Source of the DNA: Isoetes taiwanensis
Lineage: Eukaryota > Streptophyta > Lycopodiopsida > Isoetales > Isoetaceae
Direction of reading: 5' to 3'
NCBI GenBank assembly: GCA_021234155.1
Contig: JAJEKV010000006.1
Location: 18,635,920-18,699,919 of the forward strand
DNA: 64,000 bases
The notes beneath the pieces are model-generated. The model did not search any database and was not told where the DNA came from. It saw only the letters and a program-made list of their open reading frames with translations. How positions within the stretch are numbered: the first letter of the stretch is position 1; each line of letters begins with the position of its first letter. This document shows positions 15,384 through 58,096 of this stretch, piece by piece. The position numbers were made by a program, and so were the translations under genes.

Positions 15384-15749
15384 GATCGATGGAATTCTAG
15401 AATGGGGCTCGCATGAAAACGACAAAAACCTCCCGAATAGAAGAGAAATTCCTTAGCAAAACGGGATCGAGGACGAAGGTCAAAGGATTATGGCTAAAGA
15501 AGAGGCAAGGTAGAGAAAGGACATGCCACAAGCATTAATTGGTCAATCCAAGCGGGGAAAAGCCCCTCCCCGCATGGTTTCAAAGAGAATAAGGTATCTT
15601 CCGAGAGAGAAGAGGAAGATGAGGCGTTGATGAAGAACCTCGCCTAATATAGCGATCTCCCAACTAGAGAGGCATGCAATACATGCATGCGAGACATGCA
15701 TGCTCGCCCCCTCTAGAATCTCGATCCGAGGGCTTGGATCGATGGAATT
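15384..15749. repeat. Single copy of a ~360-377-bp repeat with CATGCATG motifs
   Basis: Nearly the same sequence recurs in the 39.7-40.8 kb insertion. The copy is bounded on both sides by GATCGATGGAATT (15384-15396 and 15737-15749), as expected for one unit cut from a tandem array or for a short element with direct terminal repeats. Near its right end is a cluster of CATGCATG (RY, Sph-type) motifs around GAGACATGCATGCTCG, partly palindromic. No open reading frame is preserved between the copies. Confidence 0.7.
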
Positions 15750-28256: not shown

Positions 28257-30898
28257 TGTAACGTGCTTGCCAAGCTGGCCTCTCCAAGGCAACTTGGGAT
28301 CCTGTCCTTTTACACACTTGATATTGACACATTCACACGGGGTGGTTGGAGCTCCTTAGAGATTGATGCAAGTTCTTATACATTGTGCACCATGGTAAAG
28401 AAACAAATCTTTGTTCCATTAACATTCAACAAGTGTTGAAGATAAATCATATAATATATGTACACATTCAAAATTCCAAGACACTCAAACCACAATCAAT
28501 ACAATTGCTAGTTATGAGAAAAATCTTCAACTAGAGAACTCTTGTCATCAGAGTGTTTACTGATTAAGGCATCAATGGCCGCTTGATCCCCCGAATCCAA
28601 TGAGAGGTCATCTCCTTCACATGCGTACAGATGGACTTCATTGCATTTTAAAGAAGCTTCTGCAAAACCGAGGATAGATCCCACACTAGTTTCTACCCTG
28701 GAAGGATGACTCTCCTCTGATCTCTAGGTCGTCTCGATTACATGCTCACTTAGTGGGGGTTTGGGCACTTAAGAACTATTCATACATAATTACAACTCAT
28801 AATACCATAACAATCATCATTGCTTACCAAATAGCCCCATTACACCCAACCAACCAGGTTAGTATACATACAAGCCACAAGCAACATTTCCATATCTATG
28901 CCTAAACATTCTCATCAGCACACAGTGCCTACTCCGGTTCTAACATGCACCCAGGCTGATCAGGCCCTGCGGCCAATACGGGCAGGGTTTGCCTCATGTG
29001 TACACACCCTTCCATGTTGCGTCCAGCACTGGAGGACCACTTTTGCCATGTAGCGCGACAATCCAGCCAGGATAACAATGCCCGATGTCACGCACAAACA
29101 CAACTGCAAGTCCAAGCCCCAGAGACTATGCACTTATGCAATATTTTATTAAGCACATATGTTCCAATACCATTATGATTGCAATCCACGCAATATCCAA
29201 ATATAACTATAATGATGATATCATAATAGAATACAATTCCCCATGCATTTTTCTAACATGTATACCACAATAGAAATGCTGATTCTATATAAGTCATACC
29301 ATGCATGCATCTTTTCATGATACAATGCCCATTCTGCTCATGGCATAAGGAACATACAACAATCATAACCAAGTATCTATTTTGCCTAGGGTTTGTTAGG
29401 GAATCTCTAGTCGACCCCTATGTTCAAGGATTCCATTACCAACCATTATACTAAGTTCCAGTATAAGGTACATTGGCACCATTTCCCATTTTATATCGTT
29501 TCTCGGCAAGGTCTTTTTATCCTTAATTTCTCCACACGTAAGAAAGGTTCTTCCCATTATCTTAAGTGTGTATTAATCTAAGCCAACATTTCTCCTTCCT
29601 TACTAAGTTTGTTTAACGATTTCCTACTTGTTAAATTCACGTTCTCTACATTTTGCTATTAATTTGCCTAGAACCCATGCCTGCACTCATGGTTCTCATG
29701 CATCTCCTCGGCCTAGAATCCTCCCAAATCTCCGTAACTAAACCAATTTAGTCCCCATTGCAACCCATGGTATTTTTTTGTGTATCTTAGTATTTATTTA
29801 AAGTTATCATCAGTTTTATTTAGTGTTATTTTATAGGCTGATGCTGACGTTCATCTTCAGTCCTAACAGGTCGTGCCCCCAACACCTTCAATGCATAAGG
29901 GATATGCCACCTGTGTGCATAGGGTAGCCAAAAAACCCCTAGTATACGTGTTTCTAATAGGCAAATTTGACCCCTTTTCGTATGATTTTATAACTAGAAG
30001 AGCCGACCCAAAATCCTATGACCCCTAGTATACATACGAAAAAGGGTAAAAAATTGCCCCCCCCACAAAAAAAAAAAAAACGTGGTTTTGGGTTTGACGG
30101 GTTCCACAAGGTGATGTCCCTTTGGTTAGACCTCCTTAGGGTCGATTTGGTGCCCTAGCAATCTGGTTTGGCGACTCCGGCTATGGCAGCTCGGCTTCAA
30201 TCCAGAGTTTATTTGAGCCTCCAGCATTCAAATTTGCCCTTCTAGACCAATTTCAGCCCTTTATCAGGCCAGCCCGACCTGCTTCAGGTCCGTTCCTAAT
30301 CATGCCACAACTCTGTCTTACCCCTGTTTCCAAGCTATCCAACCAGACTTTACCAAGCTCTAGCTCTTCCGGTTAATCCCTAAACTTATTGAGCATTTCT
30401 TTAACATCATATAGCCCTTAAAATCTCCTTTGGTGACCTATCTCGAATCCTCCCGCAATACTAGACAGCCAATACGAATTCTACAACCTGCTTCCTATAA
30501 TAATTTTAATTCTTTAATACTTCCATTCTAACCAGATTATTCATACAAAGCAAGATGCAATTAACTCCATAATTTTTTTATTTAGCCAAGATCAACTTTA
30601 TGCATCCTAACATCAAATGAGTAAGTTGTAAATCACCCACCTGGTTAAGCTTTCTTTGTAGTTGTCTGCTTGGTCTCCAAGCCTCCTTTACAGAAAACTC
30701 CTCCTCAGCAAGTATACTCCCAATGGAAAACTTCAAATTCTCTACAATTTACTATATATAGACCTCCTGTATAAACATCTACATACCATGTATGTGTTTT
30801 TCTTTAAGTCGGTATTAGTTTAATGGTCTCTTATAATCATAACCAAATTGTATTAAACTACTTATGTCACTTGTCAGCTAACACTCTGGGCTCAAGCA
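28257..30898 (-). repeat. 2.6-kb LTR of the second gypsy family, minus orientation
   Basis: Plus-strand ends are TG at 28257 and CA at 30898. Its reverse complement matches the plus-oriented LTR that starts at 34451 and ends at 41028, once two later insertions in that copy are set aside. The terminal ~230 bp (28257-28490 against 40797-41028) agree at about 90 percent by eye. Confidence 0.85.
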
Positions 30899-31275
30899 TG
30901 AAATGACCTAAATACTCCAGTTAATGTATGCAAAATGAAATGAGAGAATGAACCTCTTAATCCCCTAACTTTTCTCTCTATCTGAACAAACCAATGAGAT
31001 TATTCCTTGACAACTTTTCAAGCTATACTATAACCGAGAAAATGACCTAAATACTTCGTTAAATGCATGAAGATGAAATGAGAGAATGAACGGTTTATTC
31101 TCTTAACCTTTGTCTCTATACTTGAATAGATCAATGATATTATTCCTTCACATCTTTGCATTGGATCAATGTAGTAATAATAAAACAATGACCTAAAATG
31201 TGTGCAAAATGAGAGAATGAACCTCTTAATTCTCTTATTTTGTCTCCATATCTGAACATACTAGTGAGATTAGAA
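30899..31275. repeat. Minisatellite of ~143-bp units, about 2.6 copies
   Basis: Three successive units each begin with ATGACCTAAA and contain AAATGAGAGAATGAAC and an ATTATTCCTT(G/C)ACA-type word (starts near 30903, 31043 and 31188). Units differ by scattered changes. The array begins exactly at the outer edge of the LTR, so the retrotransposon inserted at or in it. Confidence 0.7.
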
Positions 31276-31392
31276 GTAGAAATCTTCTTATCCATATGGC
31301 ACCAAAGTTCTTCATCTAAATAAGACAACCAATGTCTTCTTACCAATGCCCATTTACATCAAATGTGCATCTCTATAAGTAACATTCATCCT

Positions 31393-31475
31393 AGAACATC
31401 TAGGTCTTGAATTCGAGACCGCCCAAAGAAACACTATGTATAGACGTTCCATAACCCGGTCTGAGGGGTTCCAAT
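31393..31475 (+). mobile_element. SINE fragment (tRNA-derived)
   Basis: Shares GGTCTTGAATTCGAGACCGCCC-type sequence around the promoter B box with the fuller SINE at 41416-41581, then diverges. The A box and the T tail are not recognisable here. Confidence 0.45.
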
Positions 31476-31592
31476 GGACATTAAAAATAATATCTATCTA
31501 TGAATTGAATTTTACCGTCCAAGAAAGACTAAAAGGCCTATGGGACTCAAACAAAGAACACATCAGCCAATGTGGCATGACATAGAAATACT

Positions 31593-31640
31593 ATCCATCC
31601 ATCCATCCATCCATCCATCCATCCATCCATCCATCCATCC
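31593..31640. repeat. (ATCC)n microsatellite
   Basis: Twelve consecutive ATCC units. Confidence 0.95.
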
Positions 31641-31689
31641 TCTGTCTGTCCATCCATTTATCTACTCTCCAGGATTTAAAAAACCCATT

Positions 31690-31985
31690 TCAAAAGGTTT
31701 TTGAGAAAAAAACCTTAGCAATGGTAGCCTCAATGGTAAACTGGACATTTGTACATATTAATGTAGTGATGAAGGACATGACTAAGTTCGCATGTCCAAT
31801 ACCTCTTGAAGATACAATGCTCGTCTCCTACTGAAACCATTTGCAATATCTAGCGGTTGGTTAGGCATAACCAACCCAACATATCGTACCCTAGTAGACC
31901 CAAATGTTGGATAGGTCTAATGGCATCCAATGTACCATTTGGGGCTCGATTTCAAATTGTGGAGGACTTCCATATCCCATTCTTA
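31690..31985 (+). repeat. Diverged repeat, copy 1 (partner at 42690-42985)
   Basis: Blocks such as ACATTTGTA.ATAT.AATG, GGTTGGTTAGGCATAACCAA / GGCTGATTAGGTGTAATCAA and AAATG.TGGATA are collinear with 42690-42985 at perhaps two matches in three. The function is unknown. A related trailer near CATCCACGGAAACC / ATCGTCCACGGAGACC occurs at 42590 and 43715. Confidence 0.5.
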
Positions 31986-34440
31986 TGATATGTTCTTTGT
32001 AGGTGGGCACCTGCCCGTAGTGGTTCACGCGTGTCCTTCACAGGTGCGTGTGTGTGCTACCATCATGAAAGCTTGAGAAGTTATTGGACTGCCTTTTAAA
32101 CACGCTATGGTCACTATGAGTTTGTGGTGATGCTTGATTTGATTTCTGGCGCCTACTACCTTTATGCGATTGATGAACAATGTTTTTAGACCCTTCCTGG
32201 GCGATTTCATATTGGTGTTCTTTGATGATATTCTAGTTTATTCTAGAACCCTGCAAGAGCATGTGAAGCATGTGAGGTAGGCTTTGAATATCCTGAAAGA
32301 AGAGAAGTTGTATGGAAAAATGTCGAAATGTTCTTTTGCACCGCATAAATTAGTGTATTTGGGCTTTATAATTTTTGAAGATGGGGTTGCGCCAGATTCC
32401 GCAAAGACAAAAGCTGTGAAAGATTGGCCAATTCCATAGTCTGTGAAGGAAGTAAGAGCTTTTTGGGACTTGTAGGTTACTATCGCAAATTCGTCCCTAA
32501 ATTTTCAAATATTGTTGCTCCTCTCACGCCATTGTTGAAGAAAGGGATTAATTTGGCTTGGACGGGTAATTGCCAAGAAAGTTTCCTAGAATTGAAGGAG
32601 GCGTTAATTCGAGATCCTATTTCGAAGACATTTGATATGGATCAGCCCATTCAAGTAGTCACAAATGCCTCTGGAAAAGCTATCGATGGAGCTTTATTGC
32701 AGCATGGAAGAGTATGTGCCTATACATCTCATAAATTGTCGCCAGCAGAGTAGAATTATCCAATGCATGATTTGAAGATGTTGGCAATCATACATGCTTT
32801 GCATGTATGGAGACACTACCTATTAGGTCGTCATTTCTCATTGAAGACTAACCATCAGAATCTAAAATTTTTGTGAAGCAGCCACATTTGAATAGGCAGC
32901 GAAGTGGATGCAATTGCGAGAAGAATACGATTTTGAGATTGAGTATCAGCCGGGCAAGGAGAATGTGATAGCGGATGCTTTATCCCGCAGATCTGTTTTT
33001 ACCTCTATTAGTATGCTTCAGGGTCAATGGAATGCTCATCTCATGGATAAAGTGGCACGGGACCCGTATTTTGGGCCGGTGGTTGCCCGGTATCAAAGGG
33101 GTCTACCAAGTTTCCACAATACTCGTTATCTAATGGAGTCTTGTATTACAAGGATCCGACGTGCAGGATGAGGCTCTTGTATGAAGCGCATGATAGTCCA
33201 TTAGGGGGACATCCCGGGGTGCACAAGACTCAAAGGAAGGTCAGATAACATTTCTTTTGACGGGGCCAGAAGAAAATGGTTAAAGAGTATGTGGCAAAAT
33301 GTTTAGAATGCCAGAAAGTTAAAGCTTCACGATCTAAAGCCCCAGGGGAGTTGCAACCATTGGAAGTTCCTTCATCCATATGGGAATGCATTGGCATTTT
33401 GTAGATCTACCTCGAACATGAGTAGGGTATAATGCCATTTATGTTGTGGTAAACAGATTGATTAAGCAAGCGCATTTTATGCTAACAAAGACGACAATTA
33501 CAGCTATGGATATCTCCAAGTTATTTGTCAAAGAATTTTTTAGGTTGCATGGTATGCCACGTACTATTACCTCCGATCGAGACTCAAGGTTCATGAGTAA
33601 TTTTTGGCAAGGATTGTTCCGGAATGTGGGAACTAAGTTAAATACTAGCACTGCATACCACCCACAGACAACCGGGCAAGTGGAGCGAGTAAATCAGGTT
33701 TTGGAGGATATGCCAAGAATGTATGTGTCGAGCCAGCCTAAGGCGTGGGATTCCTATTTACATTTGTCAGAGTTTGCATACAATAATACATACCAAGAAT
33801 CTATCAGGATAAGTCCCTTTGAGGCAATGTATAGCAAAGAGTGCCAATGTCCGATGAATTGGAGGGATTCTACTTGCAATGTGGAAATGGCCAATGAGGT
33901 AGCCTAGGATTTGGATGCACAATTCAGGGGGACTTTGTCAAAATCTTGCAATGGTTCAAAATAGGCAGAAGCAGTATGCAAATAAAAGGCGCAAACCTTT
34001 AGAATTCACAGAAGGTCAATATGTATTCTTACGGATTAATCCAAACAGAGCTTATTGGCATTTAAAAGTGCGGGGAAGTGGGCTCCGAGGTATGCAGGAC
34101 CCTTTAAGATCCTGGAACGTATCGGGAAAGTAGCTTACAGGTTGGAATTACCCTCGCATGTTAGGGTGCATAATGTATTCCATGTGAGCAACTCGAGGAA
34201 ATATGTCTTTGATCCGTCGCATATGCTTGCCGTGATGATTTAGTAAGCAGAGATGAATTTTTATACCCCCAACCAGAGCGTATTTTGCAAAGAGAGACAG
34301 GCAAGCTTCAATGACAGACAATCACAAGATTTTTGGTCTAATGGTCTGGTTGTCCGATTGAAGATGCAACATGGGAAGATTCAAAGCGGATTCTTTGCAA
34401 TTTCTTGAGCTTGCCCATAAGGACATGGGTTAAATATTCA

Positions 34441-34450
34441 AAGGGGAGAA
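34441..34450 (+). other. Polypurine tract, second gypsy family
   Basis: AAGGGGAGAA, all purines, directly before the TG that opens the 3' LTR at 34451. Confidence 0.85.
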
Positions 34451-35734
34451 TGTAAAGAGCCTAGGGTGTTAGCAGACAAGTGATGTAAGTATTTTAATAC
34501 AATTTGGTTATGATTATAAGAGACCATTAAACTAATACTGAGTTGGGGAAAAATACATACATGGTATGCACATGATGTTTATACATGAGGTCTATAAATA
34601 CTGAATTGTTAGAGGATTTGAAGTTTTTATATTGGAAGTATACTTGCTGAGGAGGAGTTTTCTGTGAAGGAGGCTTGGAGAGCAAGCAGACAACTGCAAA
34701 AAAAGCTTAATCAGGTGGGTGGTTTACACCTTACACAGGGGATGTTAGGATGTGTAAACTTGATCTTGAATAAATAAGAAAATTTTGGAGTTGATTGCAT
34801 CTTGCTTTGTATAAATAATCTGGTTAGAATGGAAGTATTAAAGAACTAAAATTATTATAGCAAGCTGAGGTTATGGAATTTTTATTGGCTGTCTAGTGGG
34901 ATAGGTCATTAGAGGAGAATTTAAGGGCTATATGATGTTAAAGAATGTTTAATAAGTTTAGGGATTAACCGAAAGAGCTGGAGCTTGGTAAAGTCTGGTT
35001 GGATAGCTTGGAAACAGGGGTAAGACAGAGTTGTGGCATGATTAGGAATGGACCTGAAGCAGGTCGGGCTGGCCTGAGAAAGGGCAGAAATTGATCTAGA
35101 AGGGCAAATTTGAATGCTGGAGGCTCAAATAAACCCTGGATTGGAGCCGAGCTGCCATACTCGAGCTGTCAAGCGGCATTGCCAGGGCACCAAATCGACC
35201 TGAAGAGGTCGGAACTGAGGCCACAAGGAACGATTTGGGATGTTAGGCCTCTGGGAGGCCAGATTTACGAGAAAACGAAGGCATAAGGGCTTCGTTGAAG
35301 CTGTTGGGGCCCGCGACCTGTTAGGGCTGAAGATGAATGCCAGCAACAGCCTACAAAGTAACACTAAATAAATAACTAAGGATAACTTTGAATAAACAAC
35401 ACTAAGATACATATAACAATACCATGGGCTGCCATGGATATTAAATTGGTTTAGTTATGGAGATTGGGGAGGATTCTAGGCCGGGAAGATGCATGAGAAC
35501 CATGAGCGTAGGCATGGGTTCTATGGAAATTAATAGCAAAATGTAGAGAACGTGAATTTAACAAGTAAGAAATTGTTGAACAAACTTAGTAAGGAAGGAG
35601 AATTTTAATGAAAACAAAATGTTGGCCTAGGTTAATACACACTTAGGTTGATGGGCGCTCTAATCAATTCCCAGCCATTAGATAGGGGAATATTCCGAGG
35701 GATATGCCCTCTAGTGCGATCCCATCCCTACACC

Positions 35735-36010
35735 TCATCGGGAGATGGGGTCAAACGCTGATGTGGCTCTATTCCGAAGGGGCCGTTGACATCCATTGCA
35801 AGGGATTTTGATGTCAATTGACTTCAAAGTAGCAACTGCCACTATTCCAGGCACTGAAGCAGGAGCGGCTCCTACAACTAAATTAGTAGGCAGTGAGGTT
35901 TCTCCCACAAGCTTCCCTGATACAGTAGCAAAGCAACCGAACAGTTTGGGAGCCATCAAATCCGAGGCTTCTTCAGCACCTGCAAAGAGAATGTACAAGC
36001 AAACCGGGGG
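35735..36010 (-). CDS. Unknown last exon of the Replitron-like element
   Basis: An open frame of about 80 codons, starting after the acceptor TCTCTTTGCAG at about 35990 and ending at 35735. It reads GAEEASDLMAPKLFGCFATVSGKLVG... and ends CNGCQRPLRNR...FDPISR, with a CxxC pair near the end. Codon-like composition and a clean stop argue for past coding function. It has no recognised domain and no sign of a start of its own. It shares the minus strand with Rep and ORF2. Confidence 0.35.
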   Translation of the reverse strand, partial: PPVCLYILFAGAEEASDLMAPKLFGCFATVSGKLVGETSLPTNLVVGAAPASVPGIVAVATLKSIDIKIPCNGCQRPLRNRATSAFDPISR

Positions 36011-36022
36011 GTTTGAACCCCC
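36006..36022 (-). other. tRNA T-arm-like hairpin 1
   Basis: On the minus strand GGGGG-TTCAAAC-CCCCC: a perfect 5-bp stem and a 7-nt loop fitting the tRNA T-loop consensus TTCRANY, which is also the RNA polymerase III B box. No matching tRNA 5' half was found. Confidence 0.6.
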
Positions 36023-36462
36023 TGCCACTGCATTTCGCCATCCTTTTCTTAACTCTCATGTCTGATCATGCAGACAATGAGCAGCCATAACAGAAAGTGA
36101 CATCTCCCGCAGGCAAGGAAGAGGAATTACCTAAGTTTCATTGACTTTGCATACGAAATTGCTAATGCACAAAGTGGATGAGTTCAGATTACTAGCAAAC
36201 ACTATAGGCAGGGCATGTAAATTCGCCACTGTATAGCAATGAATAGAAAATGAATAAAAAGAAAGCGAGCAGAGCCATACCATTGCAGCAGCAGATAATT
36301 CTGCATGCAGCCCAAAATAGAACACAGAAATAGGCATGGGTCTTAAAATAGGAAAGAGTGCAAGAAAAGCTTCCTGTGTGTGGCACCACATACCTGAGGC
36401 AAGCGTTCACAGCCACCATAGAAGCCTGAAGCAGAAGTGCACCTGGAATGAGGACCGTGACC

Positions 36463-36477
36463 GGGGATTCGAACCCC
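36463..36477 (-). other. tRNA T-arm-like hairpin 2
   Basis: On the minus strand GGGG-TTCGAAT-CCCC, a 4-bp stem with a consensus T-loop; the 11-mer GGTTCGAATCC is a perfect B box. A weak anticodon-arm-like stem (GCAGA/TCTGC) lies about 20 nt upstream (minus strand), but no acceptor stem closes, so I do not call a tRNA gene. Confidence 0.6.
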
Positions 36478-36692
36478 TGCAAGATCAAGCAGACTCCATA
36501 ATCTGCGCCCGCCCTTAAAGGGCAGGGGCTATTCCCATGCACATGCACATGCAATCACACCATGTTTTCCCTTAAGTTTTTTTGGCTGACCTGTAGTCCA
36601 TTTCCACATCCATTTTTCATTTTTTAGTTCCTTTTCTGATGCATAGCACCTGCCACACAAAAACAACACAATAAGCAAGCAAAGCACACTGT

Positions 36693-37223
36693 CTAGTTGT
36701 TGTTCATAACAGCATTGTGGCGCCTGGCCAAAGCGTCAATACGCCGCAACTCCCTGAGAAGAAGAGCCCGTGCGAGATTCATATGCGCCCGCATATGCTG
36801 GCGCTCATCTGTGGTGACCTCCACCTCTTCCCACTCCATGTGAGAGACGGCCTCTTCCAATGCTGCAAAGAGGCGCCCAAGCTGCATCCTAAACAATCTG
36901 ACGGAGGCAGCCACAGACTCGGCCAGGGTGTTAATGTTAACAATGCTTGACACAACATCCAGAGCAACCTGCACACGCTCCCTGTTCGGAGAGAAGGCAA
37001 CAGGAGAGGGCACAGCATTGTGAATCACATCATGGACACTTGGCCCGGGAGCAGGAGGCCTGTGAGGAGGGGAAGATGGGGCCTCCTCATCACTTTCAAT
37101 GTTAATGACGGCATCAGCTGGCCTCACCCCAACAAATGCAACGGGACTGCTGCTAACAGCAGCCCCATTCCCAATCTCTATCCCTATAGTCCCACCAGCA
37201 CGATCCATCTCTATTCCAGGCAT
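36693..37223 (-). CDS. Unknown helical protein or Rep C-terminal exon
   Basis: A 176-codon open frame downstream of Rep on the same strand. A good acceptor (TTTCTTTGCAG, ending near 37230) lies just before it and a possible donor near 37313, so it may be a later exon of the Rep transcript rather than a separate gene. The N-terminal half is acidic and proline-rich (NIESDEEAPSSPP near residue 40). The C-terminal half is predicted to be helical (LFAALEEAVSHMEWEEVEV, LARALLLRELRRIDALARRH). I do not recognise a domain. It could be an accessory DNA-binding or multimerisation part of the transposon. Confidence 0.45.
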   Translation of the reverse strand: MPGIEMDRAGGTIGIEIGNGAAVSSSPVAFVGVRPADAVINIESDEEAPSSPPHRPPAPGPSVHDVIHNAVPSPVAFSPNRERVQVALDVVSSIVNINTLAESVAASVRLFRMQLGRLFAALEEAVSHMEWEEVEVTTDERQHMRAHMNLARALLLRELRRIDALARRHNAVMNNN

Positions 37224-37617
37224 AATAACTGCAAAGAAAGATGCAGAATCAAAACAAACAAAGACATATGTACAAGACCTGCAGGCAGCCCCCTACAAGT
37301 CACCCAATTGCCATTGTGTAACCCGTACCCTTCCCAATCCGCTGAATGGGCTCCATCCCAGCCGGGATCCCATACAGCACACATCTAACATCGCTTGGCA
37401 AAGCCACACGGGGTTCGATGTCGGTGCCAAAGTGCCTTCACCCTATGCTCAGATATAAAGGCAGTGTTAGAAGGAAGGATCCAGCTAGTAGACAACACAA
37501 ATTTACCGGTTCTAAGCATCCTAGTGATTGTGTATACAAGGCTAGAGCTCAGATGCCTTCCACCATGATAGTTTACAAAATGAAGAGCCCTTCCCAAGAG
37601 GTTCCTGTTATCCAGAA

Positions 37618-38160
37618 CTACCACATGCTTAATGTCTCCGCACCATCTGCACAGAAGTACGGGTCCTTCCCCATCTCCAATTGGCGTTCGGAAACATTCT
37701 TTGTGTGCAGCTTGAAGTGGGGCTTCCCCATATCCTTCATGCAATACCCTATTAGCCCCTCAAAACAATGGAGCTTCGTATTTCTTAATGCCTTGCAAAC
37801 AAGAACAACCCCCACAGGCTTCTTACCTCCCCACCCAAACCTGCGCTTCATGGCCAAATTGACTACTCTAGGGGACTTCAGAGCAAGCCTAAAGACACAT
37901 TGGTAATGCAGGTGGTCTAGGTCACTCCCCTCTCTCTTTGCACACACGACACACAATCCTCCGGGGAACTTAATCAGCATGTCATAGAACTCTGGGGGTG
38001 CATCCTTGCCTGCCACACCCAGGGTAACACTGACGTCTATGAGGCCTATGCCTTCATCCTCAAGGCCATCTCTGCATGCCTCTATAGCAGACCTGCCAGA
38101 AGAAGACTCTGGTTGCCCATTCCTGCCTGCCCGCCCTGCTCTTCTAGCATCCCTCCTCAT
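37618..38160 (-). CDS. Rep-like HUH endonuclease (Replitron type), probably partial
   Basis: Presumed to nick and rejoin one DNA strand during rolling-circle-like transposition. An open frame runs 38427-37618. The likely protein start is MRRDARRAGRAG at 38160, because the sequence before it reads like an intron end (long pyrimidine tract). Counting from that start: motif I-like strand IDVSVTL near residue 42, metal-binding HUH motif DHLHYQ near 82-87, an RRFGWG block near 106-111, and the catalytic-tyrosine motif GYCMKD near 138-143, then KPHF and NVSERQLEMGK. The order and spacing fit Y1 HUH endonucleases. After NVSERQ the same type of sequence seems to continue leftward (ALHFVNYH, TITRMLRTGKF.LSTSWIL near 37.45-37.6 kb) but not as one uninterrupted frame. 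Activity is doubtful. Confidence 0.7.
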   Translation of the reverse strand: MRRDARRAGRAGRNGQPESSSGRSAIEACRDGLEDEGIGLIDVSVTLGVAGKDAPPEFYDMLIKFPGGLCVVCAKREGSDLDHLHYQCVFRLALKSPRVVNLAMKRRFGWGGKKPVGVVLVCKALRNTKLHCFEGLIGYCMKDMGKPHFKLHTKNVSERQLEMGKDPYFCADGAETLSMW

Positions 38161-39698
38161 GGAAAGAAAACAAACAGAAGAAGGAAGAACAGAAGGGAAT
38201 GAAGCTAACCTGGTTAATATACGCAAGGCGCCTCCAAGGTGACGATTTATACACAGAAATCTGGCCGGATTCCCCATCTTATCCGCAACCACGTCGCCAG
38301 GAACGGCAAGCGTGGCCTTCCAAACATAGCGCCCCGAGCTAGTTGGGCACATCCGCGAATACAGTCTGCCCACTAAACCTAACCATTGCTGAATGCACCC
38401 CAAATGAACAACAGTCGAAAATGGCAAAGATTCCCTTACGCCCCATTCATGTACACTTTTCTATACAATACACCCTAATAACCATTACAACCTTATGTTA
38501 CAAACATACCCTTTTATGAACTAGCAAACTATATGGGACGAACCTTTTTAGGTGGGGAAAAATTAATGGGTAAAAAGATCTTGCCGGGAGAAATCGCATT
38601 AAATGGGAAATGGTACTAGTGTACCTTATATTGGAACTTAGTATAATGGTTGGTAATGGAATCGTTGAACATGGGGGTCGACTAGAGATTTCCTAACAAA
38701 CCCTAGGCAAAATAGAGACTTTGTTATGATGGTTCTATGTTCCTTATACCATGAGTAGAATGGGCATTGTGTCATAAAAAGATGCATGCATGGCATGTCT
38801 AATGTGGAATCGCATTTCTATTGTGGTATACATGTTAGAGAAAGGCATGGAGAATTGTATTCTATTATGATATCATCATTATGGTTATATTTGGATATTG
38901 CATGGATTGCAATCATAATGGTATTGGAACATATATGCTTAATAAAATATTGCATAAGTGCATAGTCTCTTGGGGCCGGAGTCCTTGTGCGGTGGCTTGG
39001 ACTTGCGCTTGTGTTTACGCGTGGCATTGAGATTTGTTATCCTGGCTGGATTCTTTGTCGCGCTACATGGAAAAAGTGGTTCTCCAGTGCTGGATGCGGC
39101 GTGGAAGGGTGTGTACACATGAGGACCTCCCCCTCCCCCCCCCTGGCTACAGGGTCTGATCAGCCCGGATGGCATGTTAGAACTGGAGTAGGCACTGTAT
39201 GATAATGAGAATGTTTAAGCATGCATATGGAAATGTTATCTGTGGCTTGTATGCATACTAACCTGGTTGGTTGGGTTTAGTGGGACTATTCGATAAGCAA
39301 TGATGATTGTTATGGTATTATGAGTTGTAATTATGTATGAATAATCCTTAAGTGCCCCAAATCCCCACTTAGTCTTTAGGACTAATCCCCAGGTTGGTGT
39401 AACCAGTACCTGATGGAGCCGAGTACAGTAAGGCCACAGAGACCTGAGGATCAGAGAGTTGGAGACAAGATCAGGCGTGAGGAGGTGTCTAGATTTCCTT
39501 TACGAATTGGAGGACGAGGCTAGTGAGCATGTAACCGAGACAACCCAGAGATCAAAGGAGAGTCATCCTTCCAGGGTAGAAACTAGTGTGGGATCTACCC
39601 CTAGTTTTTGTGGCCATAAATGCCTTAATGAGCGAACCCTCTGATGAAAAGAGTTCTCTAGTTGAAGATTTTTCTCATAACTAGCAATTGTATTGATT

Positions 39699-40796
39699 CT
39701 ATAATGGGGCTCGCATGAAAATGACAAAAACCTCCGATAGATAGGCTTCTCATTCATCTAGCAGATTTTCTACAATGGTGGATAGTGGATAGCCGCACAC
39801 ATGCGAACCACCCACGAAGAAAAATAAAAAGAATGTCCAATTATACAACTTGGACCCCAGAAAATACAATGCTACTAGATGTTTGGTTTGTGTACCTGCC
39901 GAGAGCTTATCACGGGGATTAAAAAACCCTGCCCTTTCGGGTTTTCGAGGAAAAACCCTAGTGATAAGGCTTTGACAAGGGGCTTAGACAAATGTAAGGC
40001 TGAGAAATTGCTCCTAAAAAACCCACGAATGGAGAAGTCGAAGCGGCTATCACTTGCCAACCTGTACCTGCACATCACCAACACTAGAACAAATGTGAAA
40101 AAACAAACCTCCCAAAGTGGAGAGGCTGATCACGCGTGCCACGCAACAACAAAAGAAAAACCACTTCAAATAGAGGGTCTAGTCACGCGTGCCACGCGAC
40201 AAATACATTAAACAATTAAGGGCGGGGAAAGTGGGCTTCAGAGAAATAGAGAATAAGATACTGCTGAGAGAGAAGAGGAAGCGCCGATGAGATGTTGATG
40301 AAGAACCTCGCCTAATATAGCGATCTCCCAACTAGAGAAAGCATTGAATGCATGCATGCGAGACATGCATGCTCGCTCCTTCTAGAATCTCGATCCGAGG
40401 GCTTGGGTCGATGGGATTCTAGAATGGGGCTCACATGAAAACGACAAAAACCTCCCAAATAGAAGAGAACTTCCTTATAAAAATGGGATCGTGGGTGAAG
40501 GTCAAAGGATTATGGCCAAAGAAGAGGCAAGGCTGAGAAAGGGCATGCCACAGCATGAAAGAAACGCCAAATTGGTCAATCCAAGCAAGGAGAAGCCCAT
40601 CCCCTGCATAGCTTTAGAGAATAAAGAATAAGGTATACTGCTGAGAGAGAAGAGGAAGCGTCGGTGAGACGTTGATGAAAAACCTCGCCTAATATAGCGA
40701 TCTCCCAACTAGAAAAAGCATGCAATGCATGCATGCGAGACATGCATGCTCACCCCCTCTGGAATCTCGATCCAAGGGCTCGGATCGATGGGATTG
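39699..40796. mobile_element. 1.1-kb repeat insertion with 377-bp tandem units
   Basis: Absent from the homologous LTR and flanked by GATT on both sides (39695-39698 and 40793-40796). The right half is about 1.4 tandem copies of a 377-bp unit (CTGCTGAGAGAGAAGAGG begins at 40261 and again at 40638). The left half begins with the same unit (TGGGGCTCGCATGAAAA) but then carries about 480 bp of unrelated sequence with an ACGCGTGCCACGC direct repeat (40134 and 40185). Each full unit contains clustered CATGCATG motifs. No protein is apparent; it is probably a non-autonomous element or an array fragment of the family also present at 15384-15749. Confidence 0.65.
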
Positions 40797-41028
40797 TGGT
40801 TTTAGTGTCTTGGAATTTTGAATGTATGTACATATATTATATGATTTATTTTCAACACTTGTTGAATGTTAATGAACAAAGATTTGATTCTTCACCATGA
40901 TGTACAATGTATAAGAACTTGCATCAATCTCTAAGGAGCTCCAACCACCCTGTGTAAATGTGTTAATATCAAGTGTGTAAAAGGAGATGATCCCAAGCTG
41001 CCAGAGAGGCCAACTTTGGCAAGTTACA

Positions 41029-44640: not shown

Positions 44641-45720
44641 TGTTTTTTTTTGAAGGACGACAAACTTTATTGAAACTCCAAGCCAAAAAGCAAAATACAA
44701 ATGCAGAGGCGGGAATAAAGTCTCAGAGGATAATCATGATCCACTGAGTAGAACCAGCCTATGCATAAGACAACACACTCAAATAGGACTCAAATATCAA
44801 TTGTCGCTTGGCAGGAGCAAGCGAAGAGAAATGGTAAGCCTTAACAATTCTAGCTTGTGCGTCTTGGAGGACAACTGCAGGAGGAATATCCAAACCCTGA
44901 AAGATAGACAGTCTTCTGCGCTTCCAGATGGACCATAACAACCATCCTGATGCTAAATGAAATGCTTGGCTCCGCAACTTATTCCAAGTATCTGGATAGA
45001 CAGCCAGAAGCACTTGCTGACTTGTCAATGTCACATGAAAAAGAGAAAGCAGCCAAGACCAAACAGGCTGGAGATGAACACATAAAAAGAAACAATGCTC
45101 AATGGTCTCGTCCCTTTGCTTGCACAGTGGGCAGAGTGCTGACACTCGAGGATCAAATCTGTGGACAAGCACGTTCACACGAGGACATCTGTGAAGAATC
45201 TGCCACCAAAGCACAGCCACCTTAGGATGAAGTAGTTTATCCCAAGCCCAAGTCCACATACGTCTCCAATTAGGAGGTGAAAGCTGAAGGGACCACCTAG
45301 TGGATGGCGGAAGGATATCACTATTGACAAGCAGCCTATACATAGAATTCACAAGCCTATGCTCATGAATACTCTGGTGGGAAACCCACATGCACCCTTC
45401 AATAGCCTCTGGAGCAACCAATGGCAGAGTACTAGCAACCTTTTGCCAAATAGGTTTGTCCCATCGAGACAATGAGAATTTTGTTTGAAAGATTTGCCAT
45501 GTCGCTAACTGGCCAGAATCATACCATGCCGCAACTGTCAAGATTCCTGCTAACCTCCAGCGCCGTTGAGTTAATGGATGAACCGAGGCACAAAGTGGAA
45601 GATTATTTTCCACAGGTATCCACCAACAAGGGGCATTCAGCTGATGACATGCAACAAATGTAGTCATCGAACGGTTTGTATTTGCAAAAATCTGGAGCCA
45701 TTTTCTTGTTTGGATTTTTT
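44641..45720 (-). mobile_element. 5'-truncated LINE (L1-like), 3' end
   Basis: Minus-strand element ending at 44641 in a short poly-A (T-run on the plus strand, about 44643-44652), preceded by an AATAAAG polyadenylation-type signal at about 44667. The coding part is the C-terminal portion of ORF2. The 5' break is somewhere near 45.7 kb; no endonuclease or RT core is present. 5' truncation is normal for target-primed insertion. Confidence 0.75.
44759..45667 (-). pseudogene. LINE ORF2 C-terminus with zf-RVT domain
   Basis: 302 uninterrupted codons. Residues ~160-215 read DKLLHPKVAVLWWQILHRCPRVN...CPLCKQRDETIEHCFFLC, the plant reverse-transcriptase zinc-binding domain (zf-RVT) with its CPxC, E-x-x-x-H and final C. 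The tail KAYHFSSLAPAKRQL is typical of the region after it. The frame is open but lacks endonuclease and RT, so it cannot work alone. The open length suggests a fairly recent insertion. Confidence 0.75.
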
Positions 45721-45789
45721 TTGTATTAGTAGATCCTTTGCTTTAAGTTTCTCGATTGGATTATATACTTCTTCATAGTTAAATAGTTA

Positions 45790-46414: not shown

Positions 46415-46816
46415 TTGCAACACAAATTGTATGTTCATCTAGAAAATGCAAAAGAAGATGTGCAAAATAATGTAGATGGACTTCGACTATATATGCAAGT
46501 AGAAGACTGCATGTTTAGATCATCAAATTTTGATTAAGGACAATGAGTGTCATGCCTCGGATGCATAGCATGCAATTGTCAAATTGAATTAAAAAAGACA
46601 CTAAGTCAATTAAGCTCAGTAATGTGATATAGAATGAGTATGTCGCATGCAAACAGTTACATTGCGAGTCTTTTGATTTAAGACACGGTAATTTGTTCTT
46701 TGTCTATTGATCCAGGCAATTACAGTTATTAAGCTAGACAATCCTAGACAATAAGATCCAGACAATCCCATATACAAGAGAACATTTCTTACTTGAAACC
46801 TAGTTGATCCACGGCC

Positions 46817-48217
46817 ACGAACGATTTTGGTTGGCGTATATTTGCATCCACTTGTTGGACGGATCTTTTTATCTGTGGCAATGGGTGCATGATAAATTTA
46901 ATAAACAGATGGAGGAATGTTGGAACAAATGCGAAAAATGATGAGAAAAGATATACAGAAAAAACAAGGAGGACTTGGAATGACTTCCTCTTGCTTGAGA
47001 AACAACTGCCAGAGGAGCTATGTGTTCAATTGGACAACTGTTGGAAAGAAAACAAGAATAGATGGATGTTTGGGGCAATGCCATACTTGACAGCAGTGGG
47101 AGCATTCAAGATTGTGAAGGTGGGGTTCATGAGAGTTGGGCATACACATGATGATGTAGATGCATTCTTCGGAACTTTCTCTACCAAGCTCAAGAGAGAA
47201 AATATGACTAGTCTCCCTGAACTAATAGATATGCTTGAGAGCTGAATAATCCAATGGCTTTCTTGATGGATGAGGTTGCAGATTGAAATCATTTGTCGAG
47301 GGATACTTATTGGATGGTAAGGATCAGTTGACATGACACACAAAGCCACTTTAGTTCAAGTTTTGGGTCAGGGAGGGAATACCGATCATGCAATATAAGT
47401 GGAGACTAGGTGATAAGTTGTGGATGCCTGTACAAGGAATCGAGTTGTGGCAAAGAGGGGCTACAGGTGAAGTTCTTATTCCTAGAGGGAAGCCAAAACC
47501 ACTCTCTCCCTTCAAGACTATTAAAGACTCTAGCCAACTAGTGAAGGGCATCAAGGATTATATAATGCACTGGGAGGATGTTCGAAATGGAAAGCACACC
47601 TCCTTCCTGAAGAAAAATCACATGGACTCCCTAATCAATTATTGGGAGAAAGTTTGTGACATGCTTAGAAACAGAACAGCCATGTGGGGGGAAGCTAAGA
47701 GACGGGTTCTTACCAGAGTCTAGATGGAAGGGTTCTCATGGAGCAAGCACATCAAAGAAAGTTGACTTGGGTCCTAACAATGGCTCCAAGTGGTTTGTGG
47801 GAAGCAAGGCCTCAAAGCCGAAGTGGTTTGATCTTCCTGAGTGGGATCCTTTTGAGGACATCAAGGAAGGATACTTTGTGCTAGTAAGGCCTGACGATGA
47901 GGATTGTCCAACATGGTTAGGGGTGGCACTTTCTGATGTTACCACCACCATGCCTGATGGAGAGGAGTTCAATAGGAACCCCCGGATTCCGGGTTCAATA
48001 TTGGGAACCCGTTGGAAGGCAGAAGAGGGGCAACTTGAAGGAGCAATATACCGACTGCTGGGAGAAGAAGTGGAGGGAAAATCATGCTGATCCTCAAAGG
48101 AGGGAATTTGTGGAGTGTGTGGTATGGTCATATCCAACTTGTCACATTTCAAAGGACAAGACCCACAAGGTCCCCAAAGGGGAGATGGACAAAGCCATGA
48201 GCAAAACCTCCATGCTA
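46817..48217 (+). pseudogene. DUF7869-type transposase-like relic
   Basis: Plus-strand frames at 46889-47245, 47388-47723 and 47656-48090 look like pieces of one protein. The first holds LCVQLDNCWKENKNRWMF...VKVGFMRVGHTHDDVDAFFGTFSTKLKR. This matches the DUF7869 pattern as I remember it (DNC..ENKN, then VGHTHxDIDxxF), a family widespread in plants, algae and invertebrates and usually found in transposon-like genes. Conserved acidic and histidine residues suggest an RNase H-like nuclease, but that is inference. The middle piece begins with IMQYKW; the last has WDPFEDIKEGYFVLVRPDDED and W-G-rich sequence. The frame shifts at least twice and no start region is seen, so it is decayed. No terminal repeats were found. 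Confidence 0.5.
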
Positions 48218-55019: not shown

Positions 55020-55714
55020 CAACAAATCTGTTCTGTTCCTCAATTTGCAGCCGATCTGAAAGGGTTTTTCCACAACCGACTTGATCTGCTACTGCCCATT
55101 TCGTTCTCAGCTTCTCTTTCGTTGCAGTAAAACTCTTTAGCAACCAAGTGAGTATTCTTTCGGGTATTTTCAATTCTGTTCGCAGACCCCCTTCTTGTTG
55201 GATTTCCACTTCAGAGCCGGCCTTGACTTTCTCGGCTGTTTCTTATATGCCTATCAATCTCTGAAGGTTTCTAAAACTTGCAGATATGGAGTCCATGATT
55301 CTGCCAGTTCGCAGGCCTCTTTGTTTTATGCAGAGGCGGCAATGATGAGATAAAATATTGCTGCATCCAAATGGTGGGTACATGCAGCTTGTTATTTTTT
55401 GTTTTAGGTCACTGCTACTTTAATTGACATTTCTGCTGTTTCGAGGCGCCAATTTTATAAGAATTTTTTGTTTCCACTCTTGGAGTGTTTCTCTGCTAAC
55501 TTCAGTAAGCCACAGTTTTATTTGTAGATCCGGCAAATGTACTCTTCATCTGCTGCCAGGGAGTTTTGGATGATATTATACGAAGGTTATGTACTTCATG
55601 TGGCAGCTTTTAGTTGGGCTATGTCATCCAGCTTGCTTGAGTTTCTCCTATTTCGGTGTCCCCTGGTCTAGAACAAAGTTTGGGGACTTACTATAGCTGA
55701 GTTCAGATTCTGAG
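55020..55714 (+). other. Putative spliced 5' leader of COI1 with short upstream ORF
   Basis: Splice-like sites suggest leader introns from about 55147 (donor GTGAGT) to 55283 (acceptor CTTGCAG) and from about 55371 (donor GTGGGT) to 55528 (acceptor TTTGTAG). An upstream ORF of 19 codons, MESMILPVRRPLCFMQRRQ, runs 55286-55345 in the leader exon between them. Such a uORF would be expected to lower translation of the main frame. All boundaries are consensus-based guesses. Confidence 0.35.
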
Positions 55715-58096
55715 ATGGAAAGCAAACGGTTTGAGGGTTTTATTTCAGATGAAATTTTGGAATGTGTATTTGAACATCTGGATGATCCATTAGATCGAAG
55801 TGCTGTTTCCCAGGTATGCCGCCAATGGCATAATACTGATGCCCAGACCCGTAAGCATGTTACAGTGGTTTCGTCTTATTCTGTGAATCCTTCTGTCCTT
55901 GTGAAACGCTTTAGAAATTTAAAGAGTTTCAAGATTAAGGGAAAGCCTAGGCCTTATGATTTTGATCTGATTGTAAGAAACTGGGGTGGATATGTTGGAC
56001 CTTGGATTTCAGAGCTTGTTAGAGCACGAAAACAATATGGTGCCTTCCCTGCCCTTCAGTCTATTCATCTTCGTCGTATGGAGGTTACTGACGAGGACCT
56101 TGATGATTTAGCTGGGGCGTTTGCTAACTCCTTACAGTCATTGACGCTGGATAAGTGCGCTGGATTGACAACTAATGGTTTATATGCAATAACATCTAAG
56201 TGCAGGTATTGTTCTCTTGATTGTGGAAACTGCTTTTTCTTTTCCCTCTTTGTTTGCATGAAAAAATATATGATTTATTTTTTGGTTTCTTATAGGGGAT
56301 TAAAAAAGCTTTATCTCGAAGAGAGTGCAATTGAGGATAAGGGTGATGAATGGCTGAAGGAGCTTGCATGCCATAATTTTCATCTAGAAGTGTTAAATTT
56401 TTCATTGACAGCGCTTGAGGTCGAAATGGAAGATTTGGCAACGCTATTAAGAAACTGCAAGTTGCTGACTTCTTTGAAGGTCTGTGAAATCAATGCAGGA
56501 AAGATGAGAGGAGCTCTAAAATCTGCACAATCTCTTAAAGAGCTTGCAGTATCTTACCCTGCTGATGACCACTTAAATATTGATGTGCACATTGAATTAC
56601 CCAGGACTCTCACATCTTTTTCTGGTGATATTCCGTTGCCATTAGATTCTCATGTTGCATCAAATCTTATCCAGCTGAATCTTATGTCAACGTTCACTAC
56701 ATTAAATGCTGAAGCGCACAGTGAAGTCTTCAAATCATGTCCAAATCTTGAAGTTCTAAAGGCAAGTTGTTCCTTTTATGGCGTGCACTAGCAATCCAGT
56801 ATTTTAACATAAAATCGGACCAGTTCCTTTCCTGATTTATCTATTTTTTCATCTCTGATCTAATTTTATTGCTTCCCATGTTTCCTTTTGAGTTAATTTA
56901 TAAGTGCTATTCCTTTATTCTTGTTGGTCATGTCGATTTGGAATTTCTTTGCTTTATTTTCTTGTTAAAGTCATCAGCTTCTTGATCATTATTTTTTGTT
57001 TAAGCCAAGTGCTTTTACTAAAATTGCATTATATGTCTTTTCTGTATATCTGGTTCAACCCCACATATGCACATATGAAGATGCACAAATATTAGGCGTA
57101 TTATTCACTGTTGGATCTCAGAGCCAAAAGTTCCCATCCAATGGCATACTGTAAAAGAGTGGCTTTTTCTGTGATATTTTTTAAATTCTTTTCCATGTAA
57201 CTTCAGAATGTAGGAATTGACAAAATGCTTATTGTTGCTTTTCTTACTCGTCGTTTTTTAATTACCAGGTAAGGAATATTATTGGAGATGCAGGTCTTCA
57301 TGTGCTTGGGGATTGTTGCAAGAAGCTGAAGAGTATAAGGATTGAGAATCTTGAGGACCACCATGGCTTTGTCTCACAGATTGGAATGACTTACCTGGCT
57401 AAAAGCTGTGTAAACCTCCAATTTGTTGCAGTTTATGTATCAGATATCACCAATTCCACGTTGTCTGCTTTTGGAGATGCATGCCCGAATTTGACAGACT
57501 TCCGGATTGTTCTACTGGAAACTAATGAGCATATTACAGAACTTCCTGTAGATGATGGTGTTAGGGATTTGTTATCTGGATGCCAAAAGCTTGAACGGTT
57601 TGCTATTTATTTACGGCATAGGAAATTGACAAATCAAGGCTTTGTACGGCATGGGGGATTGACAAATCAAGGTTTGGCTCATATTGGGCGATATGGTGGT
57701 AAACTTAAATGGATTCTTTTGGGCTGTGTAGGGGAGGACAGTGAAGGATTCAAGTATCTGTCTGGTTGCCAAAAGCTTCAAAAGCTTGAAATCAGGGATT
57801 GCCCTGTTAGTGAGGCTGGTATTGCAGCCACAGTTAGTCGCATCCCATCATTGCGGTATGTGTGGGCTCAAGGCTATATAGAAAGAAATAGAGAGGATCT
57901 TGTTGCAATGGGGCCTGGCTGGAACATAGAGTATTCCCCAAAAATGCAGCGAGATTCGCAGGAATTGCCTTTCCAGTTTGTTGCTTATCGCTCATTAGCA
58001 GGTCCAAGGGCAGATCATCCACCTGAGGTAATCCAGATCTGCCCAAAAACCAGGGACCTTGAGGTTACGAGGTGCATTTTTGTTAGTCATGCATAA
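55715..58096 (+). CDS. COI1: COI1 jasmonate receptor, F-box/LRR protein
   Basis: F-box subunit of an SCF ubiquitin ligase in the nucleus. With its hormone ligand it binds JAZ repressors and marks them for degradation. Exons 55715-56205, 56296-56761 and 57269-58096 join in frame to 594 aa (Arabidopsis COI1 has 592, also three exons). The F-box is at residues ~10-50 (ISDEILECVFEHLDDPLDRSAVSQVCRQWH), followed by LRRs. Hormone-pocket residues are present by alignment from memory: R85 and F89 (KGKPRPYDF), R348 (SIRIE), A384 and Y386 (VAVYVSD), R409 (DFRIVLL), Y444 (AIYLRH), R496 (LEIRDC). Intron 2 uses a GC donor (GCAAGT at 56762). An 11-codon tandem duplication (57614-57679) lengthens one LRR loop. 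No other damage is seen. Confidence 0.93.
57614..57679 (+). repeat. 33-bp in-frame tandem duplication within COI1
   Basis: Two adjacent 33-bp units encode RHRKLTNQGFV and RHGGLTNQGLA. Arabidopsis COI1 has one unit here (RQGGLTDLGLS). The frame is kept. Confidence 0.9.

Follow-up and report, generated by a model that had tools for sequence, protein, structure and literature searches.

A 2.9-kb segment (about 2.89 kb) inserted into a long terminal repeat (LTR) of a Ty3/gypsy retrotransposon of the lycophyte Isoetes taiwanensis is, in our assessment from its sequence and that of its relatives, very probably a dead copy of a large Isoetes family of Replitrons with shared ends. Replitrons are a newly named group of eukaryotic HUH transposons, and little was found on them in the literature searched. 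The segment lies in a 64,000-nucleotide stretch of contig JAJEKV010000006.1 (hereafter the window), where the right LTR aligns, on either side of the insert, with an inverted, homologous LTR at 28266-30893; the flanking blocks are 86-88% identical, and the inverted copy contains no insert sequence. A preceding interpretation made without database searches (the sequence-only reading) had described just such a sharply bounded 2.9-kb segment, present in one LTR and absent from its homologue. With its open copies, its division into four diverged subfamilies and the empty LTRs that can be read, the family allows its ends, target rule and gene content to be tested.

The identity of the insert is carried by its first open reading frame (ORF1), which encodes a Rep protein. 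The frame at 38160-37618 on the minus strand features VSVTL at residue 43, DHLHYQ at residue 82 and GYCMKD at residue 138, the motif order and single-tyrosine type already noted in the sequence-only reading, and it matches the Pfam family Replitron_HUH (PF21859) with 45.4 bits against a cut-off of 28.5 (E = 1.3e-11), in agreement with the Replitron membership then proposed. A reversed-sequence control of the frame gave no PF21859 match. An alignment of 20 rows was built from the window frame and 19 copies chosen for long open frames out of 40 fetched copies; all 20 members match PF21859 at E ≤ 1 (best 8.3e-21), and three of them match PF21860, the Replitron C-terminal domain, at the same threshold (best 0.029). 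Among all 40 fetched copies, HxHxQ lies within the open frame of 34 and YxxKD within that of 35. Better-preserved copies have an intact Rep frame of about 331 aa, of which the frame at 38160-37618 is a broken remnant that retains the motifs: it is lost after about residue 170, and ORF1 lacks approximately 130 bp close to its end. To judge from this damage the window copy is dead, which the sequence-only reading did not recognise. Since the assembly was made partly from Nanopore reads, as stated in the sections consulted of its description (PMC8566536), sequencing errors could account for some of the small breaks of frame within repeats.

Several results weigh against this assignment. The HUH half of the window frame (69 aa) receives no PF21859 score by itself and shows a sub-threshold similarity to Endonuclease_7 (16.9 bits, cut-off 23.6), the tyrosine half being the main contributor (39.6 bits); part of the reason, at the least, is that the window copy departs from intact copies at residues 66-77. 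In addition, a single-sequence structure model of Rep reached a predicted local distance difference test (pLDDT) value of only 36 and was unusable, and a Rep profile found no match among PDB sequences up to E = 10. Searches of 5.8 billion proteins returned no hit for the 180-aa frame at E ≤ 1e-3 among 173 candidates, and none for a 458-aa read-through at E ≤ 10 among the 7994 candidates scored. Three PDB matches to the 180-aa frame (best E = 0.19) were judged to be chance, as were weak matches to Endonuclease_7 in Pfam (0.033), to an HNH phrog (0.43) and to an unnamed phrog (0.015). NCBIfam gave nothing for the Rep frame, the HNH family at E = 0.43 was its sole PHROGs match, and scans of viral and prokaryotic contigs found no relative.

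A search of the genome (1,658,258,908 bases in 1110 contigs) identified at least 151 matches to the Rep frame at E ≤ 1e-3, including the window copy, with 150 of 3027 first-look candidates scored. Forty-five genomic copies (L009-L053) were read, and their ends recur at other sites, as the sequence-only reading had anticipated for members of one family; neither outcome that it had named as refuting, a best profile hit to an unrelated family lacking the HUH fold or the lack of further copies with these ends, occurred. By identity rather than by a tree, they fall into four main groups, from A (window-like) to D (approximately 50% protein identity), plus a few broken copies. L009 duplicates the window insertion, and L011 and L013 share one insertion. 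The Rep frame is under purifying selection in all four subfamilies: the median ratio of nonsynonymous to synonymous substitution rates (dN/dS) for ORF1 is 0.13 in group A (10 pairs), 0.24 in B (6), 0.10 in C (6) and 0.20 in D (6), computed on 17 of the 19 selected open copies, a set that leans to intact copies. Between distant groups dS was saturated or not computable. ORF1 ends in TGA in 17 of 17 selected copies, which is partly a consequence of selection for open frames.

Two other sources of an HUH-type Rep were considered. The Rep of circular Rep-encoding single-stranded (CRESS) DNA viruses combines an endonuclease with a superfamily-3 helicase, whereas Helitrons encode a two-tyrosine Rep fused to a Pif1-type helicase and have the termini TC...CTRR. 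An endogenised fragment of a CRESS-DNA virus or plasmid Rep would show the same motif order (U-H-U-x-Q, then Y-x-x-K), but neither a viral Rep nor a superfamily-3 helicase was matched in Pfam, PHROGs or NCBIfam, copies with common ends occupy other sites and every aligned member matches PF21859, which makes this origin the least credible of those weighed. A Helitron, or a Helitron-derived element that had lost its helicase, is scarcely more credible. The insert resembles one in its HUH-type Rep, in the absence of inverted terminal repeats of 7-12 nt and in its insertion into AT, the Helitron target according to passages of a review (PMC10741241), yet it differs in having a single tyrosine, within the motif Y-C-x-K-D, and in starting with TATAG and ending with CSA. 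Furthermore, neither the scanned frames of the insert nor the profile matches of the aligned ORF1 and ORF2 members include a Helitron or helicase family, the former in line with the sequence-only reading, which had seen no helicase.

The ends of this Replitron family were determined by comparison of the 45 genomic copies and four readable empty LTRs. The claim that the empty LTR alone gives the exact ends (35656 and 38532) did not hold, one end being off by about 10 bp. The low end lies at about 35646 because copies of groups A and B elsewhere retain CTAGAG..CCATC, a few variable bases and CSA, so that conserved sequence extends past 35656, and this extension is missing from the readable empty LTRs; pairwise LTR comparison shifts the end because the terminal CCCAT of the element equals a CCCAT in the target. 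Of 46 copies (the 45 plus the window), 39 have a recognisable group-specific 5' start, preceded by A in 34 and by T in 5. At the 3' end, 14 of 46 copies match a strict pattern that already required the following T, and the last bases deviate from consensus in the window copy and its duplicate L009, in L011/L013 and in L012, L021 and L028. Between the end regions of the window copy there is neither an inverted nor a direct match of 7-12 nt.

The empty LTRs point to the probable target. Three of them (L054, L055 and L057) read CCCATTATCTTAAG and the fourth (L056) reads CCCATTATTTTAAG, all sharing CCCATTAT(C/T)TTAAG; as L054 is the left LTR of the window itself and L055 a duplicate of it, three of the four are independent. 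For a fifth LTR match (L062), no alignment spanning the insertion site was obtained. We read the 3' side of the window copy, CCCATCAACCTAAG, as the element end followed by LTR from which about 7 nt have been lost. The element probably inserted into AT, either between A and T without duplication or with a 2-bp AT duplication, the letters being identical either way, and the pair of ATGGG motifs is probably a coincidence of element end and target instead of a target duplication. Two observations count against this placement of the ends. First, the filled LTR is about 7 nt short of a clean insertion into AT, such that a deletion must be assumed. Second, flanks match over 5-6 nt across the insert in 9 of 20 A/B copies, compared with 22% of random flank pairs of different copies. 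Mean flank matches in these 20 copies are 4.4 against 3.9 in random pairs; the excess is small, its positions vary and it comes partly from duplicate copies, so it leaves room for a short target duplication or a short homology with the target.

The same data bear on whether ATGGG is a true 5-bp target duplication, with ends at 35656-38532. The motif occurs once in the empty LTR and twice at the insert, Replitron target duplications span 2-8 bp in the review passages (PMC10741241), and the small excess of flank matches includes CATGA in L011/L013. However, copies elsewhere retain CCAT and further conserved bases past 35656, the empty LTRs differ from the window at three (in one LTR, four) of the six bases after CCCAT and the flank matches of other copies fall at varying positions, and we therefore regard such a duplication as improbable.

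Further features of the ends were inspected in individual copies. Four copies, L032 and L036 in group C and L037 and L038 in group D, carry tandem pairs of 14-17-nt repeats at their 3' ends; these are possibly a trace of the transposition mechanism. L016 (group B) has an 18-nt pair that includes flank. A flank duplication of approximately 20 bp in a single copy, L017, is better read as a tandem repeat of the target. Predicted folding of the 3' terminus was no better than that of shuffled sequences (z = -0.74), and complementarity between the ends and the target was weak and not significant. Guide pairing of the target CCCAT with an internal ATGGG was rejected, as it was no better than chance and ATGGG is common.

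A second frame (ORF2), overlooked in the sequence-only reading, is conserved alongside Rep. At E ≤ 1e-3 it is present in 41 of 45 copies; it is open over at least 170 aa in 14 and has a median dN/dS of 0.28 across 79 pairs, degraded copies included. Five ORF2 rows gave no Pfam match at E ≤ 0.05, and an ORF2 profile had 11 PDB matches up to E = 10, none of them at E ≤ 0.01; DUF5563, at 0.055 for one of the five rows, and the best PDB match, a surface-layer protein at 0.013, were both judged to be chance. Of the 41 copies with a recognised Rep start, 35 have a conserved AGGTRA splice-donor motif no more than approximately 80 nt ahead of the Rep ATG, compared with 3.7% of random stretches: 8/13 in group A (window included), 12/13 in B, 6/6 in C, 6/6 in D and 3/3 in the broken group. 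The five of 46 copies in which the Rep start was unrecognised were left out of this count and nothing else was dropped; as members of one group share ancestry, the independent support comes from four groups. At the other side, visual inspection shows a CAG a few nucleotides 5' of the ORF2 ATG in copies from all four groups, the exceptions being L009 and L035 (CAA), L027 (none) and L043 (TAG).

From the window copy alone, a fusion of ORF1 and ORF2 as two exons of one protein, joined across an ordinary intron of roughly 70-100 nt, appeared likely, given the T-rich tract and CAG before ORF2 and the possible donors near the end of ORF1. It became unlikely after comparison with better-preserved copies. 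The open ORF1 frame ends at the same place, in TMA(I/V/M)(G/N) or close to it and then a stop, in 20 of 40 copies across groups A-D, and the distance from the CAG to the ORF2 ATG differs by 5 nt between groups A and B, which would break the joined frame in one of them. The arrangement that we tentatively favour, and hold to be somewhat short of probable, is one in which the ORF2 transcript has an intron containing Rep and splicing acts as a switch. Against it stand the absence of the AGGTRA donor from the window copy, L009, L010, L012, L015 and L025, and the outcome of a strict acceptor test including the T-rich tract, which 16 of 26 copies passed but none of the 3 in group C (background 1.9%).

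Under the intron arrangement, a single promoter would probably drive both genes. Unspliced RNA would yield Rep, and a splice joining the donor immediately ahead of Rep to the acceptor immediately ahead of ORF2 would remove Rep as an intron and yield ORF2, a putative accessory protein of about 176 aa. Rep, a single-tyrosine HUH protein of about 331 aa, is expected to nick one strand at the element end, to stay bound to the 5' phosphate of the DNA through Y139 and to pass the single strand to a new A/T target, by analogy with HUH enzymes, for which cleavage and covalent attachment via the catalytic tyrosine are described in the consulted part of PMC13231165. ORF2 and the conserved donor suggest a way in which an element of this kind could keep its transposase in check: splicing would decide between transposase and accessory protein, a built-in switch for self-regulation. 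Taken as a whole, a two-gene Replitron lineage in which the transposase gene is the intron of a second element protein's transcript, with splicing as self-regulation and insertion between A and T like Helitrons and without duplication, is a possibility to which we give slightly less than even weight.

Single-tyrosine HUH transposons of the IS200/IS605 type are comparable in having one catalytic tyrosine and an expected single-strand transposition; the insert differs from them in the lack of any match to that family in the profile libraries searched and in its eukaryotic splice signals. According to the review passages (PMC10741241), Replitrons are 0.9-4 kb long, lack terminal inverted repeats, have direct terminal repeats of 5-11 bp and target duplications of 2-8 bp, and are reported from groups that include lycophytes. 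The insert family resembles them in its PF21859 domain, the absence of a detected helicase and of inverted terminal repeats, its length of 2.9 kb and its lycophyte host. In contrast, its target appears to be AT alone, with no clear longer duplication, and its second conserved frame and putative Rep-in-intron layout are unmentioned in the review passage. No second gene in Replitrons is described in the literature passages covered, a scope that lies outside the original Replitron description, and the main text of a paper on Isoetes sinensis (PMC10541799), in the form consulted, does not contain the words Helitron or HUH. The family very probably belongs to the known Replitron group, and its two-gene, intron-embedded layout may be a new variant. 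The features of the window copy and its host LTR are collected in Table 1.

Table 1. Positions of the Replitron copy, its genes and signals, and the LTRs concerned (window numbering)
Feature	Positions	Strand	Basis
Whole Replitron copy, group A	35646..38533	coding strand minus	Missing from readable empty LTRs; ends placed from 45 genomic copies and the 4 empty LTRs that could be read
5' terminus TATAGTTTGCTAGTT, A in front	38519..38533	-	Same or group-specific equivalent start recognised in 39/46 copies
3' terminal region ending ...TTAGAGCGCCCATCAACC, with GAGGG(CATAT)CCCTC inverted repeat	35646..35730	-	Common to group A copies
Putative TATA box, TATAAA	38246..38251	-	Script pattern match
Splice-donor position AG|GT (GTTAGC; weaker than GTGAG/GTAAG elsewhere)	38208..38211	-	Position before ORF1 ATG
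ORF1 remnant, Rep HUH endonuclease gene, broken here	37300..38160	-	PF21859 E 1.3e-11; comparison with intact copies
HUH motif DHLHYQ	37900..37917	-	D-H-L-H-x-Q invariant in 20-row alignment
Presumed catalytic tyrosine Y139 in GYCMKD, single-tyrosine type	37744..37746	-	Y-C-x-K-D-x-G-K invariant in 20-row alignment
Splice-acceptor-like CAG after T-rich tract, just 5' of ORF2	37229..37231	-	CAG near ORF2 start in the majority of copies
ORF2, second conserved frame of 176 aa (MPGIEMDR...MNNN), open in window copy	36693..37223	-	Genomic copies, dN/dS
Host Ty3/gypsy 3' LTR, holding the Replitron insert and a second insert at about 39699-40791	34451..41028	+	LTR ends, purine tract, alignment to inverted copy
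Homologous 5' LTR without insert (empty site)	28266..30893	-	Alignment to right LTR

The host repeat is a genuine Ty3/gypsy LTR. The left copy ends ...TTACAA and is followed by TTGGTATCAGAGC, which we take to be the tRNA-Met-type primer-binding site of plant Ty3/gypsy elements, and then by a gag frame with a zf-CCHC domain (zinc knuckle) on the minus strand. The right copy begins TGTAA after a purine tract, downstream of RNase H and integrase fragments. Two LTRs of one family thus stand head to head at 28266-41028, with 5' LTR-gag on the minus strand and pol-3' LTR on the plus strand, and therefore either the retroelement has been rearranged by an inversion or two elements meet here. On contig C1107, L009 is the same insert at the same place in the LTR (93.9% identity over insert and flanks) and the LTR matches (L009 and L055) follow in the same order as in the window, from which we infer that the Replitron insertion predates the duplication.

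A second insertion of about 1.09 kb lies in the right LTR at 39699-40791, with GATT at both flanks; it contains a repeat spaced by 377 bp that is also present at 15386-15749. In the Replitron copy L020, a 79-bp stretch (2527-2605) between ORF1 and ORF2 resembles the host LTR family (80%). In its non-coding portion, the window insert has two tRNA B-box-like motifs (GGTTCRANYCC) on the minus strand, at 36009-36019 and 36465-36475, and this motif occurs four times in the window against an expected 0.37; a tRNA identity for these two T-arm motifs was discarded, neither ARAGORN nor Rfam finding a tRNA. Outside the retroelement, a 327-aa minus-strand frame at 44759-45742 features a zf-RVT domain and is likely the end of a LINE reverse transcriptase, and a DUF7869 frame is found at 46808-47245 (E = 4.6e-29). 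Finally, a COI1-like jasmonate receptor gene is located at 55709-58096, and in a 17-row tree it groups with a Selaginella protein (100/98) among the lycophyte rows.

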